Assembly (NCBI RefSeq): GCF_021731785.1
Contig: NZ_JAKFWS010000021.1
Coordinates: 1 to 33,373 of the forward strand
DNA length: 33,373 nt
Direction of reading: 5' to 3'
Source of the DNA: Methylocystis sp.
GTDB lineage: Bacteria; Pseudomonadota; Alphaproteobacteria; Rhizobiales; Beijerinckiaceae
Of this stretch, positions 4,102-21,463 are shown one piece after another. Below the pieces are notes generated by a model. The model made no database searches, was not told the origin of the DNA, and was given only the letters and a program-made list of their open reading frames with translations. Position 1 is the stretch's first letter; each line of letters starts with the position of its first letter. A program made the position numbers and the translations under genes.

Positions 4102-4695
4102 ATGAACGTCATCGTTTACGACCTCCTTGCCCTTGCGATCGGCTATCTGCTGGGCTCCGTTCCCTTCGGTCTTCTTCTTACGCGCGTGGCTGGCGCCCCC
4201 GATCTTCGTTCGATCGGCTCGGGCAACATCGGCGCGACCAACGTCTTGCGCACCGGCCGAAAAGACCTGGCGGCGGCGACGCTGCTGCTCGACGGGCTGA
4301 AGGGAACAGCGGCGGCGCTCATCGGCGCAACGCTGTCGCCCGAGGGCGGCATGATCGCCGGCTTCGCAGCCTTTGTCGGCCATATAGCGCCAGTGTGGCT
4401 GCAATTTAAGGGCGGCAAGGGCGTCGCGACCTTTGTTGGCGTGCTGTTTGGACTGAGCTGGCCGACGGCGCTGATTTTTTGCGTCGTCTGGCTGTCGGTG
4501 GCAGCGCTGTCGCGCTACTCGTCGCTTGCCGCGCTGACGGCGAGCGCGGCGGCGCCGCTGGCCTTATTGATGTTTGGCCAAAGAGGCGAAGCCGTTGTCG
4601 TCACGATCATGACCGCGATCGTCTACTACCGGCATCGAGACAATATTACGCGTCTGCGCGCCGGCGCCGAGACGCGGATCGGACAAAAGACGTGA
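4102..4695 (+). CDS. plsY: Glycerol-3-phosphate acyltransferase PlsY
   Basis: This 197-residue integral membrane enzyme transfers an acyl group from acyl phosphate to glycerol 3-phosphate, the first step of phospholipid synthesis with PlsX. The three PlsY motifs are present: [25 protein letters not shown] and [19 protein letters not shown]. Several hydrophobic helices lie between them, with an Arg/Glu-rich tail. I chose the ATG at 4102 because the first helix begins right after it ([19 protein letters not shown]); an in-frame start at 4039 would add 21 residues before the helix. The TGA overlaps the GTG start of dprA (GTGA), a coupling that marks plsY-dprA as an ancestral operon now broken by a transposon. 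Confidence 0.96.
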
Positions 4696-4780
4696 TCGAG
4701 GCTTCGCCAGGCGGACGGTTGAGCGAGGCGCAGCTCGTCGACTGGCTCAGGCTCATTCGCAGCGAGAACGTTGGGCCGCG
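4692..4780 (+). pseudogene. dprA: dprA, 5' fragment cut by transposon
   Basis: The GTG at 4692 opens a frame reading LSEAQLVDWLRLIRSENVGP, the usual N-terminal segment of DprA. After codon 30 (GPR) the frame runs into the transposon and stops at 4829, giving a useless 45-residue peptide. The continuation, TFRQLINRFGG, is found in frame 3.4 kb away, directly after the other transposon end. Removing the element plus one copy of the 8-bp target repeat restores a continuous reading frame. DprA loads RecA onto incoming single-stranded DNA during natural transformation. See the 3' fragment at 8166. Confidence 0.93.
4773..4780 (+). repeat. Target-site duplication, left copy
   Basis: GGGCCGCG here is repeated exactly at 8166-8173 on the other side of the transposon. 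An 8-bp duplication is the size usually made by IS1595-family transposases. The match could be counted as 9 bp if the first base of the element (C, 4781) is assigned to the target instead. Confidence 0.9.
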
Positions 4781-4805
4781 CGGTATTATGGCGCAAACGC
4801 CACAA
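4781..4805 (+). repeat. Left terminal inverted repeat of the transposon
   Basis: The 25 bases beginning CGGTATTATGGCGCAAAC are the exact reverse complement of 8141-8165. The inner part also forms its own small hairpin, TGGCG-CAAA-CGCCA. The next base inward differs between the two ends, so the repeat stops there. Confidence 0.93.
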
Positions 4806-4838
4806 GATATTTCGGAGTCGCGATCTTAGCTTTCAAGC

Positions 4839-5279
4839 ATGAGAGCCGAGATTTGCACGAAGCAAGCCCGCTTCACGCTTGAGCGCCTTCACGCCGAGCT
4901 AGGCGGCAAAATCATAGAGAACAAGAAAGAGGCCGAACGGCTCGCCGCCGACATGAAGCATGTCGAGGCGGTCCTGAAAATGCTGGACCCTTCCTATTGC
5001 GTCCGCTCGATAGCGGTTCGCCGTCGCAAGCCGAATCCCTATTTCAAGCGTGGGACGATCTTCCGCAGCGTTCTGGAAATTCTCAGGGATGCGCCAACGC
5101 CTCTCACGGCTTCCGAGATCACGTCGCGGTTGCTGGCCTCAAAAGACGTTTCCCAGCCGTCGAGAGAAGATTTCAGGAACCTGTTCGGGGGCGTGCAAGC
5201 GTCGCTGCGGAATAATGACGGTAAGACCGTGCGGGCCATTGGCGAGGGAAAGCCAGCGAGGTGGGAGTTAATGCCATAG
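4839..5279 (+). CDS. Transposon passenger protein, coiled coil plus possible winged helix
   Basis: This 146-residue protein lies just inside the left end of the transposon. Residues about 8-48 are rich in Glu, Lys, Ala and Leu in a heptad-like pattern and predict a long helix or coiled coil. Residues about 70-146 read like a winged-helix unit: FRSVLEILRDAPTPLTASEI, then TSRLLASK, then FGGVQASLRNNDGKTVRAIG and a closing KPARWEL strand. That would suit a DNA-binding accessory protein of the element, but this is inference from pattern only. The ATG follows the inverted repeat by about 30 bases, so its promoter may be supplied by plsY readthrough or lie in the repeat itself. I do not recognise a named family. 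Confidence 0.72.
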   Translation: MRAEICTKQARFTLERLHAELGGKIIENKKEAERLAADMKHVEAVLKMLDPSYCVRSIAVRRRKPNPYFKRGTIFRSVLEILRDAPTPLTASEITSRLLASKDVSQPSREDFRNLFGGVQASLRNNDGKTVRAIGEGKPARWELMP

Positions 5280-5288
5280 AAAGCACGG

Positions 5289-5308
5289 CGCGGGCGCTAG
5301 CGCCCGCG
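5289..5308. terminator. Perfect GC-rich palindrome after passenger gene
   Basis: A 20-bp perfect palindrome centred on GCGCTAGCGC starts 10 bases after the stop of the preceding gene. It would form a very stable stem but has only a weak T-rich tail (TCCATTTC), so it is a possible rather than typical Rho-independent terminator. Confidence 0.45.
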
Positions 5309-5449
5309 TCCATTTCAGACTAAATTTCCATATTGAATCGTCGGGGCCGGAATCCCCTTTGATTCGGAGTGACGAACCGCTTCATCGCTAGCCTGTAGGC
5401 TACGCGAAACGAGGGAGTTTGTCACCGTGCTTCTGGAACAAAAAGCAAG

Positions 5450-6028
5450 ATGGGGACAACTGACTTTTTGCTCCTTATCACGCCAAGCGCGTCGGCAATT
5501 TTTTATGGCATCGGGGGAGCAATAATGCTGGCCCCGACATTTGATCATAAAAAATCGGCGAAGGTAGCTTTTGGGCTCGCTGGATCACTTTTTTGGGCGA
5601 CGGGATTGATTTGGGGAGCCACAAGCGGGGATTCGCAAATGCTCACACGCTATATTGTAGTCGGAACAATAGGCGCTATTTCCGCGATGATTACCCTATG
5701 GCTATTCACACTCACTGGAAATGCCCAGATATCAAAACCTCAATCCTACATGGAGCACCCAATGCAAAAAGATGACCAAAGTTATGTAACCGGGCTTGAA
5801 ATTAAGGGTGACCATCAAGGCGGTGCGGCTGTTGAAGTAAATTCATCTGGGGCTAATGGCGCTCCATCTACAGGGATGGAGGTGACGGCGCATGGCCTGC
5901 CCGGACAATCCGTAACAGGCGCTCGCGTCATTCAGGCCGGAAATGGAACCGGGCTTAAAGTCACACAATCTGGTCCAGGCGTTGGATTCAGCTCTACTGC
6001 AGTCAGTGGCGCTCCCAGCGATAAATAG
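5450..6028 (+). CDS. Transposon passenger membrane protein of unknown function
   Basis: This 192-residue protein has three hydrophobic segments at about residues 5-28, 37-57 and 66-90, followed by a soluble tail of about 100 residues. The tail is rich in Gly, Val, Ser and Thr and contains loosely repeated units (VTGLEIKG, STGMEVTAHGLPG, GTGLKVTQSGPG) of alternating beta-type pattern, as in low-complexity beta-solenoid or adhesive tails. The start at 5450 is the only ATG before the first helix; its ribosome binding site (AAGCAAG) is weak. The coding region is AT-richer than the chromosome. It is convergent with the transposase, with only 4 bases between the stops. Family and function are unknown to me. 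Confidence 0.68.
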   Translation: MGTTDFLLLITPSASAIFYGIGGAIMLAPTFDHKKSAKVAFGLAGSLFWATGLIWGATSGDSQMLTRYIVVGTIGAISAMITLWLFTLTGNAQISKPQSYMEHPMQKDDQSYVTGLEIKGDHQGGAAVEVNSSGANGAPSTGMEVTAHGLPGQSVTGARVIQAGNGTGLKVTQSGPGVGFSSTAVSGAPSDK

Positions 6029-6032
6029 GGCC

Positions 6033-7013
6033 TTACACTGAATGACGCTGCCAGTATCCGGTAAAATTCGGGCTGCCTTTTTTCTTCATAGCCAGCGCCG
6101 CAATGCGACTCACCTGTTCGCCGTTTGACATGCGGCGGTGATCTTCGCGCCAAGAGCTTTCCTGCGCATAGCGGAGCAGATACTGGCCCGCGACAGAATG
6201 GTGATGGCCGATCTCGGCACGGCGTAGGCGCGAGAAATAGGACTCAGCGGCATTCGTGCACGCGCCGTCGTCGCTGTAAGCTTCCTGATGATTAATGCGC
6301 TTCATTTCAAACGCGGCGTGGAGCGCATCCCAAGAGCCGGCTTCGTCGGCGTGAACGATTGAGCCCTTGGCGATGCGAGTGCGAACGAAGTTGAGCGCGT
6401 GGCCTTCCGAGCGGAAGACCGCCGGAACCGAGCGGCCGTCGCGGGCGCGGACTATGACGACGCATTGGCGCTTGCCGGTCTGATTGACGGCGCGGCGACG
6501 ATCGCGGCGGTTCTCGCGCATGTTCGCCGGCTTGACGTAGCCGCCGAAATAGCCGCCGTCGATTTCCACTTCCTCGCCGTGTCCGCCGACGACGCGGCCT
6601 TTCATCTCTTCGGCCATCGCCTCGCGCAGCTTATGCAACAGGACGAACGCGGCCTTGTAGGACGTTCCTAAGTCGCGAGACATGGCGAGAGCGCTCTTGC
6701 CCTTCACCTCATTGGCGAAGATGGCGATAGCGGCGAGATAGACCCGCAGCGGCAGCTTGTGAGACGCAAAGAGCGTCCCGCTGGTCACGCTGAAATCCTT
6801 CGCGCAGGCGCGGCAACGGAAGCGCGGCGCGCCGTTCGGGCGGCGACAATCATAGGCGTCAACGCCGCCGCAATGCGGGCAAACCGGCTTGCCGTCAGTA
6901 TCGGGCCAGCGCACGCGGCAGAACATCGCCTCGGCTTCCGCGTCGGACATGCGGAAGATGCTGGCGAGCGAGAGCGTCTTGGCGGCGCGGGAGAGGAGGA
7001 AGTGCTGCGACAT
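6033..7013 (-). CDS. IS1595-family (ISXO2-like) transposase
   Basis: The protein starts MSQHFLLSRAAKTLSL (ATG at 7013; the frame stays open to 7040) and is 326 residues long. At about residues 45-75 there is a four-cysteine zinc ribbon, CPHCGG...FRCRACAKDF, typical of the ISXO2/IS1595 group. The catalytic part follows: EVEIDGGYFGG supplies the first acidic residue, VHADEAGSWDAL the second, and the C-terminal NAAESYFSRLRRAEIG region supplies the last (Asn/Glu in this family). A conserved Lys/Arg-rich stretch lies between. Nothing is missing or shifted, so it is probably active. Its start region overlaps a 12-bp inverted repeat, suggesting control by the divergent regulator. Confidence 0.93.
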   Translation of the reverse strand: MSQHFLLSRAAKTLSLASIFRMSDAEAEAMFCRVRWPDTDGKPVCPHCGGVDAYDCRRPNGAPRFRCRACAKDFSVTSGTLFASHKLPLRVYLAAIAIFANEVKGKSALAMSRDLGTSYKAAFVLLHKLREAMAEEMKGRVVGGHGEEVEIDGGYFGGYVKPANMRENRRDRRRAVNQTGKRQCVVIVRARDGRSVPAVFRSEGHALNFVRTRIAKGSIVHADEAGSWDALHAAFEMKRINHQEAYSDDGACTNAAESYFSRLRRAEIGHHHSVAGQYLLRYAQESSWREDHRRMSNGEQVSRIAALAMKKKGSPNFTGYWQRHSV

Positions 7014-7017
7014 ATCA

Positions 7018-7049
7018 CTATATCCGATGATGTTATGCATCGGATATAG
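7018..7049. promoter_or_regulatory. 12-bp inverted repeat upstream of the transposase
   Basis: CTATATCCGATG at 7018-7029 and CATCGGATATAG at 7038-7049 form a perfect inverted repeat with an 8-base spacer. It sits directly upstream of the transposase start, in the space shared with the divergent DUF6471 gene. This is a good candidate operator for autoregulation of the transposon. Confidence 0.6.
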
Positions 7050-7076
7050 CGGTAGACGTATCCAAAAGCAATGGCT

Positions 7077-7100
7077 AATATCACCATATATGATGATATT
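7077..7100. promoter_or_regulatory. 24-bp near-palindrome before the DUF6471 gene
   Basis: The 24 bases starting AATATCACC and ending GATGATATT read almost the same on both strands (one mismatched pair). They end just before the TGGAGG ribosome binding site of the gene at 7111. They may be a second operator or overlap the promoter. Confidence 0.5.
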
Positions 7101-7110
7101 TGGAGGCCCT

Positions 7111-7356
7111 ATGGCGGCGAAAGCAGACCCGGCGACACAAGCCTATGAGACGAAAGTGAAAAACCTCCTGAAAGGAGAACTGAAGCGCCGCGGCGTCACC
7201 TATGCGCAGCTTGCCGAAAAGCTGGCGGCAATCGGGGTGAAGGAGACAGAGCGGAACCTAAACAACAAAATTAGCCGTGGCGGGTTTACAGCTGCCTTCA
7301 TGATCCAATGTTTAGAAGCGATTGGTTGCAAGATTCTGCATTTATATGACGAGTGA
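7111..7356 (+). CDS. DUF6471 small HTH-like protein
   Basis: This 81-residue protein starts at the ATG at 7111, preceded by a strong TGGAGG site 4 bases away. Residues 14-81 have the DUF6471 pattern: LLKGELKRRGVTYAQLAEKL, then GVKETERNLNNKISRGGFTA, then a closing helix, ECLEAIG-like (QCLEAIGCKILHLYDE). The order of helices matches a lambda-repressor-type helix-turn-helix, so DNA binding is likely. Proteins of this family are often found near mobile elements. It is divergent from the transposase across two palindromes, so I infer that it represses transposase transcription. Its stop is one base from the stop of the convergent gene at 7358. Confidence 0.85.
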   Translation: MAAKADPATQAYETKVKNLLKGELKRRGVTYAQLAEKLAAIGVKETERNLNNKISRGGFTAAFMIQCLEAIGCKILHLYDE

Positions 7357-7357
7357 A

Positions 7358-8047
7358 TCAGCTATTAAAACTATACTCCAAAACTAAACTCGTCTTATGG
7401 CGCGCATGAATTGTAATCCTATATCTTCCAAAAGCATGCATTATCGTCGTGAAAGCGCCATCTTCGCGAATCCCTGATTGTCCACCAATGGAAGGTCCGA
7501 CGCGCATTGGGGTTGCATCAATACTTTCCAGACCTTGTCCTTTTGCATAGAGCAATAGGCTGCCAATTGGATATGGGCTAATCACTTCAATATCAGCATC
7601 ATAGATGACTTTTTCTCCATTGCCTCGTTCGGTCATGGCGATTATTTTTACTTCTGGCTCCGGTGCCTGATTAAATACGTCTCCGATATGGCCAATATTT
7701 ACATTGCCGCCAGCCTTTATGATTGGGGAGTTTTTACGCAATGTAATCGACCCTTCTTCAATCAGTGGTTTAGTGATACTGCTACTTGACGTTACTTGTT
7801 TCGGCGCTCGAAAGTGCCAAAGAATCAGCCCAATGCTGACACAGAATGCGGGGAAATAAAACCACGGCGGTGGGTTGAGGATGTAGCCAATCATGGCGTG
7901 CCAACCCCCGAGATCGTTGTAGCTTTGGATCGCGGCGTCATACCGCCCGCGCCAGTCAAGCGCCCATAGGACGAATTGTTTTGCGGGCCATAAAGATGCG
8001 ATTGCAGCGCTAAGCAGTTTCCATTTACGCAGCAGCGCAGCCCACAT
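7358..8047 (-). CDS. Transposon passenger membrane-anchored protein of unknown function
   Basis: I place the start at the ATG at 8047 (MWAALLRKWKLLSAAIASLW), preceded by GGGGAAAATCA; a GTG at 8062 is also possible. The 229-residue protein has a hydrophobic N-terminal segment and a clear membrane helix near residues 60-80 (FYFPAFCVSIGLILWHF). The rest is soluble. A stretch GGNVNIGHIGDVFNQAPEPE leads into a beta-rich domain of about 110 residues ending FGRYRITIHARHKTSLVLEY. I have seen this linker-plus-beta-domain style in uncharacterised rhizobial proteins, but know no function. It is AT-rich relative to the chromosome and lies next to the right end of the transposon. Confidence 0.7.
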   Translation of the reverse strand: MWAALLRKWKLLSAAIASLWPAKQFVLWALDWRGRYDAAIQSYNDLGGWHAMIGYILNPPPWFYFPAFCVSIGLILWHFRAPKQVTSSSSITKPLIEEGSITLRKNSPIIKAGGNVNIGHIGDVFNQAPEPEVKIIAMTERGNGEKVIYDADIEVISPYPIGSLLLYAKGQGLESIDATPMRVGPSIGGQSGIREDGAFTTIMHAFGRYRITIHARHKTSLVLEYSFNS

Positions 8048-8140
8048 TGATTTTCCCCGCACTCAAAATATGGCGCTGGGGCAATTTGCCATGAGTCGTT
8101 GGCTAGAGTCCTGAGCATCGCGATCACTTAGCGGCTCCCG

Positions 8141-8165
8141 TTGTGGCGTTTGCGCCATAATACCG
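8141..8165 (-). repeat. Right terminal inverted repeat of the transposon
   Basis: This is the exact reverse complement of 4781-4805 over all 25 bases. It abuts the right copy of the 8-bp target repeat. Confidence 0.93.
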
Positions 8166-8173
8166 GGGCCGCG
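8166..8173 (+). repeat. Target-site duplication, right copy
   Basis: GGGCCGCG, identical to 4773-4780. Confidence 0.9.
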
Positions 8174-9352
8174 CACCTTCAGGCAGCTGATCAATCGCTT
8201 CGGCGGCGCGGGGGCGGCGCTGGACGCGTTGCCGTCGCTCGCGGCGCGGTCGTTGCACGGGCGGACAATCCGCATCGCTACCCGCGAGGAAGCGATGCGC
8301 GAGATCGAGGCGGCGCGCGCGCTCGGCGTGCGCTTCGTCACCACTGGCGATCCCGACTATCCGCCGTTGCTCAAGGAAATCGCCGATGCGCCGCCGCTGA
8401 TCGCTCTGCGCGGCGCGTCATGGGCCGCGCAGCGCGACGGCGTCGCGATCGTCGGTTCGCGCAATGCTTCGGCGGCGGGTCTTACTTTCACGGAACGGCT
8501 CGCGCGCAGTCTCGCGCTTGAGAATTACGTCATCGTCTCCGGCCTTGCGCGCGGCATTGACGCCGTCGCCCATCGCGCCGCGCTTGAAACCGGCACGATC
8601 GCCGTGCTCGCCGGCGGTCACGCGCGCCCCTATCCTTCTGAACATGCGCGTCTCGTCGAAGAGATCGCCGAGAGGGGGCTGATCGTTTCTGAAATGCCGA
8701 TCGAATGGGAACCGCGCGGCCGCGATTTCCCGCGCCGCAATCGGATTATTTCCGGGTTGAGCCGCGCAACCATCGTCGTCGAGGCGGCGCGGCGTTCCGG
8801 CTCGCTGATCACCGCGCGTTTCGCCAATGAGCAGGGGCGAGAGGTTTTCGCGGTTCCGGGCTCGCCTCTCGATCCGCGCGCTGAAGGCGTCAATGATCTC
8901 ATCCGTCAAGGCGCGACGTTATGCGCGCGTCCCGAGGACGTGATTTCAGTCCTTGCCGAAAACGCCGGCGCGCCGCCGCGCAAGAATCTCTTCGATGACG
9001 ACGCGCGCGACGGAGAGGAAACCCTGATCGACGAACTGGATCTTTTCTCCGCCCCCGACGGATCGGCGTTCGAGGAGAGGTCCGCGCCAGCGCGCTTCTC
9101 GGTGCCGAGCCCGCGGAATGCGTCGCCGATTCCGACCTCCGAATGCAAGGCGATGGCGCGCCGCAGGCGGATGCCCACGAGGTCATCGTTTCTCTGCTCG
9201 GGCCTGCGCCGATCGCGATTGATGACCTGATCCGCGTCGCCGGATTGACGGCGCGCGAGGTGCAGGGCGTACTGGTCGAGCTTGATGTCGAGGGTCGCCT
9301 GCAGCGCCATGGGGCCAACAGCGTTTCACTCGTTTACAATCAAAAGTTGTGA
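8166..9352 (+). pseudogene. dprA: dprA, 3' fragment with additional frameshift
   Basis: This part encodes most of DprA without its first 30 residues. The Rossmann-type core is clear: VAIVGSRNASAAGL, then IVSGLARGIDAVAHRAALET, then TIAVLAGG, then PRRNRIISGLS and GSLITARFANEQGREVFAVPG. The first frame runs to 9230 but becomes nonsense after about residue LDLFSAPDG (near 9060). The family's C-terminal winged-helix domain (VIVSLLGPAPIAIDDLIRVA ... VELDVEGRLQRHG) continues in another frame and stops at 9352. Loss of one base, for example in the run of five C at 9054-9058, would explain the shift. With the transposon upstream, the gene is broken twice. An internal TTG at 8229 could in theory start a truncated core. 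Confidence 0.9.
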
Positions 9353-21059: not shown

Positions 21060-21360
21060 TGAAGGAGAGCCTAGGAAAAACGCTTGCGGGAGGTTCAACG
21101 ATTTCGAACGCGGCGGGACGTTCCGGAGCGCGCGGCAGGAGTGTTCAAATGCGCCAGTTTTCGCCTCAGGGCCAGTCCCTTTTTTGCTTCATCGACAGGG
21201 CCTTGCGCTTACTCAGGGGCCGGTCGGGCGCCGACATCGCCGGCTTCAGGATAACGCATTGGCCGGGTTGATTTTTGGCGCGCTGGTTGTCCCAGTGAAG
21301 TCGCGGAATGCATCCGTCCGACAATTTCGTTAACCTCATATTAATGATTGTCGTTTTAGT
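21060..21360. other. Intergenic region between suhB and the small RNA
   Basis: No gene is visible in this 300-base stretch. It should hold the suhB promoter on the minus strand and, near its right end (AACCTCATATTAATGATTG, about 21331-21350), the AT-rich promoter of the small RNA. No clear operators were found. Confidence 0.4.
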
Positions 21361-21463
21361 CTGAATGGGTCCCTTCAGTGGGACCCCGAGTGGCTTCTTC
21401 TCCACTCGTCCTTGATGCCTCCCTGTCAAGAAGCCTTGAGAGCCGCCGTGCGGCTCTCTTTTT
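21361..21463 (+). ncRNA. Small RNA of the suhB/mmgR (alpha-r8) type
   Basis: The stretch folds into three consecutive stems: GGGTCCC (21367-21373) with GGGACCC (21380-21386), GAGTGG (21388-21393) with CCACTC (21402-21407), and the terminal GAGAGCCGC (21438-21446) with GCGGCTCTC (21450-21458) followed by T5. Between the second and third stem is a single-stranded CCTCCC (21418-21423), an anti-Shine-Dalgarno motif. This order, and the place next to suhB, match the suhB/mmgR small RNA family of Rhizobiales, which acts on mRNA translation; in Sinorhizobium it limits storage granule formation. The transcription start is estimated, not seen. Confidence 0.78.
21438..21463 (+). terminator. Rho-independent terminator of the small RNA
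   Basis: A 9-bp perfect stem with a 3-base loop is followed directly by TTTTT. It forms the 3' end of the small RNA and isolates rcdA from it. Confidence 0.85.

Follow-up and report, generated by a model that had tools for sequence, protein, structure and literature searches.

A probable exchangeable target selector encoded in an IS1595-family transposon that interrupts dprA in Methylocystis

Insertion sequences are usually thought to choose their targets via the transposase alone. The contig NZ_JAKFWS010000021.1 of Methylocystis sp. (RefSeq assembly GCF_021731785.1; 33,373 nucleotides, hereafter the window) raises the question of what placed a 3,385-bp IS1595-family transposon (positions 4781–8165) at one particular codon of dprA. 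Besides its transposase, the element encodes a 146-residue protein, here called protein A (4839–5279, + strand), which starts at nucleotide 59 of the element and is predicted to consist of a coiled coil and a winged helix. We report below that A, and not the transposase, predicts the insertion position among related elements. The covariation of A with position is the evidence on which we regard A as probably an exchangeable target selector. Two of the genes hit by these elements, dprA and comM, act in transformation. Loci (L) and genomes (G) are named by our own numbering where they need to be told apart.

Protein A as a core gene and its covariation with insertion position

A total of 298 genomes of the host family were scanned with the 22-bp end of the element, allowing at most one mismatch. 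The end was carried by 17 of them, and the duplications matched in 13 of 16 compared end pairs. In all 11 compared elements having A, its homologue started at nucleotide 59 or 60, counted from one end. The transposase and a DUF6471 protein were common to most full-length elements with the same ends. Plasmid records of Skermanella and Rhodovastum contain A adjoining an IS1595 transposase with no gene between them. Ten elements of the host family, initially detected by their ends, served to build a profile of A, which therefore misses very different types of A. The profile gave hits in 22 of 385 genomes of the class and 68 of 296 of the family (both at E ≤ 0.001), and in 41 of 397 of the order (E ≤ 1e-8). 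A transposase was located downstream, convergent and within 6 kb for 69 of the 88 hits in the first set of loci, some of the others being near contig ends, and downstream of A for 35 of 41 in the second set. Inverted repeats together with an 8-bp duplication could be assigned to 53 loci of the first set and 27 of the second, from which L105 (mismatched duplication), L191 (non-consensus end) and L226 (4,284 bp, the same as L102) were dropped, leaving 51 + 26 = 77 delimited elements. The start of A lay 50–97 nucleotides from one end in 76 of these, and at 242 nucleotides in L164, as extrapolated from the profile. Five minimal elements of 1,576–1,691 bp consist of A and the transposase alone, and DUF6471 is encoded divergently beside the transposase in 39 of the 77. 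Protein A is a core gene of this element group, at a fixed distance from the end and present in cargo-free elements. The element therefore has two passenger genes, B and C, and not three as the first-pass annotation had counted.

The flanks of the elements were read as empty sites, and Pfam and NCBIfam were run on pieces of representative flanks. Forty-six of the 77 elements were located at six positions in three conserved genes (classed elements), and 31 at other places, which include pyrF and a TrwC relaxase gene. A GT2 glycosyltransferase gene was hit at site 1 (DYP/KLDI) by 22 elements, at site 2 by 3 and at site 3 (GTSNHFR) by 11. In comM/YifB, 6 elements lay at the FLDELPEF site, which we read as the Walker B motif, and 1 at a second site, and 3 elements shared the dprA position. 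The positions within a class agree to within one base. At GT2 site 1 of L067 (398–8489, genome G032), two elements belonging to different subfamilies are inserted next to each other, each with its own duplications; their transposases are 58% identical, their ends differ, and their A proteins are 47% identical. One of them, L067+, was assigned to this site by hand, one of its flanks being the neighboring element.

Covariation was evaluated with 73 of the 77 elements, of which 45 were classed; L074, L080, L208 and L219 were excluded because they have no usable A or transposase. In a leave-one-out prediction over the 45, the nearest classed A gave the correct position for 43 and the nearest classed transposase for 25, and these numbers were 38 and 22 when the unclassed elements were also permitted as neighbors. 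Classed pairs with at least 35% identity in A shared their position in 262 of 264 cases. The partial correlation with sharing a position was 0.84 for A given the transposase, a value that none of 5000 permutations reached, and −0.24 for the transposase given A. When the labels were permuted within transposase clusters, none of 2000 trials reached 43 correct predictions and the maximum was 31. Traced on trees, the position label changed 5 times for A, which is the minimum for six states, as against 16 changes for the transposase. A set of 26 elements collected later, comprising 22 from the order search run after the idea had been noted and 4 leftovers of the family search, contained 14 classed ones. 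It was not wholly blind, as the A of L226 had been seen earlier without its ends; in this set, A of the first set predicted 14 of the 14 positions (13 with unclassed neighbors allowed), and the transposase of the first set predicted 5 of 14 in either mode.

This covariation is not explained by host relatedness. Pairs of elements in hosts of different families were at the same position in 155 of 157 cases with A identity of at least 35% and in 27 of 504 below it, where the host family counts, which include codes that carry two names, may be overestimated by one or two. In hosts of the same genus, the corresponding values were 15 of 15 versus 1 of 38. The window element follows the same pattern: it shares 91% transposase identity but only 21% A identity with L065, which is at GT2 site 1, and its A matches that of L068, another element in dprA, at 56% identity. 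It is thus A, and not the transposase, that predicts the position of insertion.

The dprA gene of the window is split into a 5' part of about 29 codons (4692–4780, + strand), which ends at the insertion, is in frame across the empty site and has an inferred start codon, and a 3' part (8174–9230, + strand) that matches PF02481, PF21102 and TIGR00732. The joined flanks read ...WLRLIRSENVGP followed directly across the insertion point by RTFRQLINRF.... The interrupted gene is the sole PF02481 match in the source genome, and PF02481 is present in 35 of 39 Methylocystis genomes. Of 30 Methylocystis dprA loci that were read, 28 contain an uninterrupted IRSEN[VI]GPRTF at the insertion point. The only broken ones belong to the source genome and G032; the elements responsible are related, point in opposite directions and split the gene at the same codon. 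The C-terminal winged helix of DprA (about 9143–9352) is encoded in a different frame from the remainder of the gene, indicating either a second lesion in dprA or a sequencing error.

Alternative explanations

Of the readings that deny A an aiming role, the best surviving one supposes that homologous recombination keeps A with its locus while the transposase and cargo are replaced. A is the gene closest to one end, so that recombination in the flank would take it along. This reading is at odds with the orientation of the elements: both directions occur in each of the five classes that have more than one member, and 5 of the 7 pairs that share a position and are at least 80% identical in A are oriented oppositely; L226 and L251, for example, are 99% identical in both A and transposase and occupy the same position in opposite orientation. 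The 8-bp duplications are exact in 77 of 77 elements, though end calling favored an exact duplication and allowed up to one mismatch, and the two subfamilies side by side at L067 each carry their own. Furthermore, classed pairs that share the slot-2 gene, on the far side of the transposase, but have A identity below 35% are at the same position in 0 of 23 cases. We therefore give recombinational linkage a slim chance of being correct.

It is a still slimmer prospect that the transposase or the ends choose the position and A only regulates expression. At GT2 site 1, the 8 bp duplicated by the 6 elements with GCGC-type ends lie one base away from those of the 16 others, and the transposase or ends may therefore set the exact register. 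However, classed pairs with transposases at least 85% identical share a position in only 8 of 16 cases, and the elements L067+ and L202, whose transposases are 97% identical and whose A proteins are 22% identical, are at different positions. Another explanation dispenses with targeting and assumes that selection favors insertions inactivating dprA, comM or the GT2 gene. Insertions into competence genes have indeed been reported (PMC4774983, consulted in part). Selection would scatter insertions along a gene, whereas each class here occupies a single position, and the position tracks A even inside one gene (GT2 sites 1, 2 and 3), which makes this explanation scarcely credible. The least credible is an ordinary cargo transposon whose three passengers confer a host trait, since A is core and B and C fall below the cut-off for every Pfam, NCBIfam and PADLOC family, even if B and C, both orphans, are enclosed by mobile ends and relatives carry DNA methylases, SocA/Panacea, M78 peptidases, HipA and similar proteins.

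An AlphaFold2 model of A, constructed with 70 window and locus sequences, has a pLDDT (predicted local distance difference test) score of 93 and shows a long helix (residues 2–49) and a winged-helix-like part (74–146), in agreement with the coiled-coil/winged-helix-like protein foreseen in the first-pass annotation. The partial correlation with position is similar for the two halves (0.82 for the coiled coil and 0.79 for the winged helix), so that they point to neither half as the one holding the contact residues of A.

Several observations weigh against target selection by A. Targeting is not absolute, since 13 of the 28 usable unclassed elements encode an A that shares at least 45% identity with the A of some classed element. 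The minimal elements L193 and L194 of one genome have A proteins 99% identical and lie at unrelated sites; A may therefore lack an aiming role in minimal elements. The sites of unclassed elements resemble the expected motif weakly, 8 of 26 scored sites reaching p < 0.05 in a shuffling test. The dprA class comprises three elements and comM site 2 one. A Foldseek search with the model of A gave no match at E ≤ 0.001, and the best matches were winged-helix proteins, namely I73R of African swine fever virus (1.9e-3), followed by Fur, PerR, PadR and forkhead. DNA binding by A is for this reason a suggestion drawn from the predicted fold alone.

Proposed mechanism and known systems

Taking these points together, we consider it likely that the stand-alone coiled-coil/winged-helix protein A is an aiming module that can be swapped between DDE insertion sequences with a single transposase. 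The module would direct each element to one conserved coding motif (dprA, Walker B of comM or one of three GT2 motifs) in many genera, independently of Tn7, and would partly be used against natural transformation. In the proposed mechanism, the core consists of the transposase, A and, in half of the relatives, the DUF6471 regulator. A is probably a dimer held together by the coiled coil, and its winged helix would recognize a short conserved coding motif, which in the window would be the dprA codons for ENVGPR. A would then bring the transposase to this motif, leading to insertion in either orientation with 8-bp duplications, and exchange of A between elements would change the target. Two slots would accommodate swappable cargo, one between A and the transposase (here B) and the other on the far side of the transposase (here C). 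With lower confidence, hits in dprA and comM may protect the element from removal by natural transformation, and the GT2 gene may serve as a dispensable conserved site. For the dprA and comM insertions, such an anti-transformation purpose is a tentative proposal that we hold somewhat less probable than its opposite.

If this is true, a transposase and a 146-residue selector that hit one position of a conserved gene would constitute a very small natural targeting system, and several natural selectors with known targets would be available for structural work. It would also become possible to test directly whether mobile elements evolve to disable transformation, with dprA and comM as programmed targets. 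"Hypothetical passenger" genes of other IS1595 elements may likewise be core parts.

Passenger-carrying members of the IS1595 family (the ISNha5 group, or "transporter IS"; Siguier et al. 2009, as cited in the parts consulted of PMC11891212 and PMC8101967) have been described. The unit in the window does contain cargo, B and C, as the first-pass annotation had it; cargo-bearing IS1595 elements are already known (PMC11891212), and the proposed aiming module is the new part. The window element resembles the ISNha5 group in having a transposase with DDE_Tnp_IS1595 and a zinc ribbon, 8-bp duplications and passengers that include a regulator, and differs from it in that the excerpts available on this group contain no report of an accessory protein covarying with insertion position. 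A literature search for an IS1595 accessory protein that selects targets, judged mostly by title or abstract and for some papers by partial text, found none, and a search for DUF6471 found no paper.

The closest functional parallel, as far as the available portions of the literature extend, is provided by Tn7-like TnsD/TniQ, TnsF of Tn6022, and Tsy, in which a separate modular protein aims the transposon at a conserved coding motif. Tn6022 and Tsy are aimed at the Walker B region of comM via TnsF (PMC10293859, consulted in part), and the same region is hit here, if our reading of FLDELPEF as Walker B holds. Unlike Tn7-like transposons, the window element lacks TnsABC and TniQ (no Pfam or NCBIfam match to TnsA, TnsB, TnsC or TniQ among its five proteins), and orientation is free. 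TnsF is described there as tyrosine-recombinase-like, whereas A is a coiled-coil winged-helix protein. A is probably an exchangeable target selector that is analogous, but unrelated, to TnsD and TnsF.

Insertion into comM, comK, comYC and comFA has been discussed as a defence of mobile elements against transformation (PMC4774983, as far as its accessible text goes). These cases share with ours the transformation genes as targets (dprA and comM here) and the hitting of orthologous positions across genera; they differ in that the comM cases described there have an integrase, whereas here a small DDE transposon is involved whose commonest target is a glycosyltransferase gene. ISApl4, of the IS1016 subgroup of IS1595, was found in three insertions at the same location in different isolates and in opposite orientation (PMC12561309). 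It resembles the present elements in family and in the repeated use of one location, and differs in that most of its insertions are intergenic and that the consulted part of the report mentions no targeting protein. In another report (PMC2682660), an IS1595-family element and the disruption of comM and dprA appear in different tables, and the portion available draws no link between them.

The element, its cargo and minor observations

The left end of the element is a 25-bp terminal inverted repeat (4781–4805, + strand), which is also found in other genomes, and the right end is its perfect counterpart (8141–8165, − strand). Directly outside the arms, the 8-bp target duplication GGGCCGCG was read on the left (4773–4780) and on the right (8166–8173). 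Only about 6e-9 perfect 25-bp inverted pairs are expected by chance in 3.8 kb. The transposase gene (6033–7040, − strand; its start at MSQHF in several relatives corresponds to 7013 here) matched the ISXO2-like DDE domain PF12762 (2.8e-37, 128.5 bits; cut-off 27), the N-terminal zinc ribbon PF12760 (6e-11, 42.5 bits; cut-off 25.4) and NF033547 of NCBIfam (140 bits; cut-off 75). The divergent gene at 7111–7356 (+ strand) encodes an 81-residue protein matching PF20075, or DUF6471 (9e-33), which is probably a regulator, and an imperfect palindrome spanning the transposase start (7013–7054) may be an operator. This locus is a 3,385-bp IS1595-family transposon of the transporter type, and the completeness, the base-exact ends and the assignment of transposase and DUF6471 in the first-pass annotation were all borne out. 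Members of the ISNha5 group reportedly have ends of the form CGGnnTT, lengths of 3.4–7.9 kb and passengers, according to a published table; the present element has ends reading CGGTATT. The transposase matched 19 plasmid records, with no Nitrobacter among the matches listed.

The element has a guanine-plus-cytosine (GC) content of 0.547, compared with 0.632 in the remainder of the window. Of the genes counted as low-GC cargo, B (0.508) and C (0.477) fit that description and A (0.58) does not, so the low value comes mainly from B and C. Both are true passengers and orphan proteins. B (slot 1; 5450–6028, + strand) comprises 192 residues with two predicted membrane segments, and C (slot 2; 7358–8062, − strand) comprises 234 residues with N-terminal helices and a β-rich domain according to a low-confidence model. 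Among 248 family genomes, B was matched in the source genome alone, and C in the source genome and, for its N-terminal part only, in G152, where the similar slot-2 protein belongs to another dprA element (L179). The same ends were found with different cargo in other genomes, where they bound other insertions, and B and C are rare in relatives and not resident there. Hence neither resident passenger genes in relatives nor repeats confined to this one insertion were observed, in keeping with a mobile, cargo-bearing unit.

Neither B nor C matched any Pfam, NCBIfam or PADLOC family above the cut-off, and none of A, B, C and the DUF6471 protein hit an anti-phage defence model of PADLOC, even at E values of up to 0.1. 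A sequence match of B to a glucosidase in the PDB (E 0.005) was taken as chance. For C, the sequence search of the PDB gave nothing under E 0.3. Its single-sequence model has a mean pLDDT of 65, with mostly 70–88 in the β part and four N-terminal helices, and the best Foldseek match, a CLIPPER adhesin domain (1.6e-4), was too weak to use. Simple hydropathy finds no membrane segment in C. The description of both passengers as membrane proteins thus holds for B and is uncertain for C, as this result stands beside the four N-terminal helices of the low-confidence model.

Slot genes differ between elements; that in G148, for instance, carries a DNA methyltransferase and a second IS1595 transposase, and several elements carry slot proteins with predicted membrane segments. 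The 137 cargo proteins of the group include SocA/Panacea (6), M78 peptidase (5), DNA methylase (4) and HipA (1). A slot-2 protein of at least 150 residues with a membrane segment predicted by simple hydropathy is present in 30 of the 39 elements that encode DUF6471 and in 3 of the 38 that do not, so the two may form a two-gene unit. The slot-1 protein of G032 was considered as a SLATT effector and discarded, as Pfam gave no support. The element L090 (G020, contig C1) is inserted in pyrF, and its cargo contains a complete, different pyrF (L090, 5238–6047; 270 residues, orotidine monophosphate decarboxylase), possibly a built-in replacement for the broken gene.

The source genome (G000) contains one full copy of the element and one further end match on contig C5. 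The latter is a 31-bp micro-element (L006, 6284–6314) composed of the left 22 bp and the final bases of the right end, bordered on both sides by CGATACTA, and probably either arose by internal deletion or is the scar of an excision. G020 contains a 40-bp palindrome that is flanked on either side by CTGAACTC (L086, 8267–8306). Contig C41 of the source genome carries a second, diverged IS1595 transposase with a partial homologue of A (L007, 3016–5474). End pairs of 811–1,985 bp without a transposase were observed at L074 and L075, and also at L072, where the duplications are mismatched; some of this group encode A or DUF6471 together with a protein having a predicted membrane segment, and they are possibly mobilized in trans. 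Outside the element, the window contains a match to the alphaproteobacterial small RNA BjrC1505 of Rfam (21326–21463).

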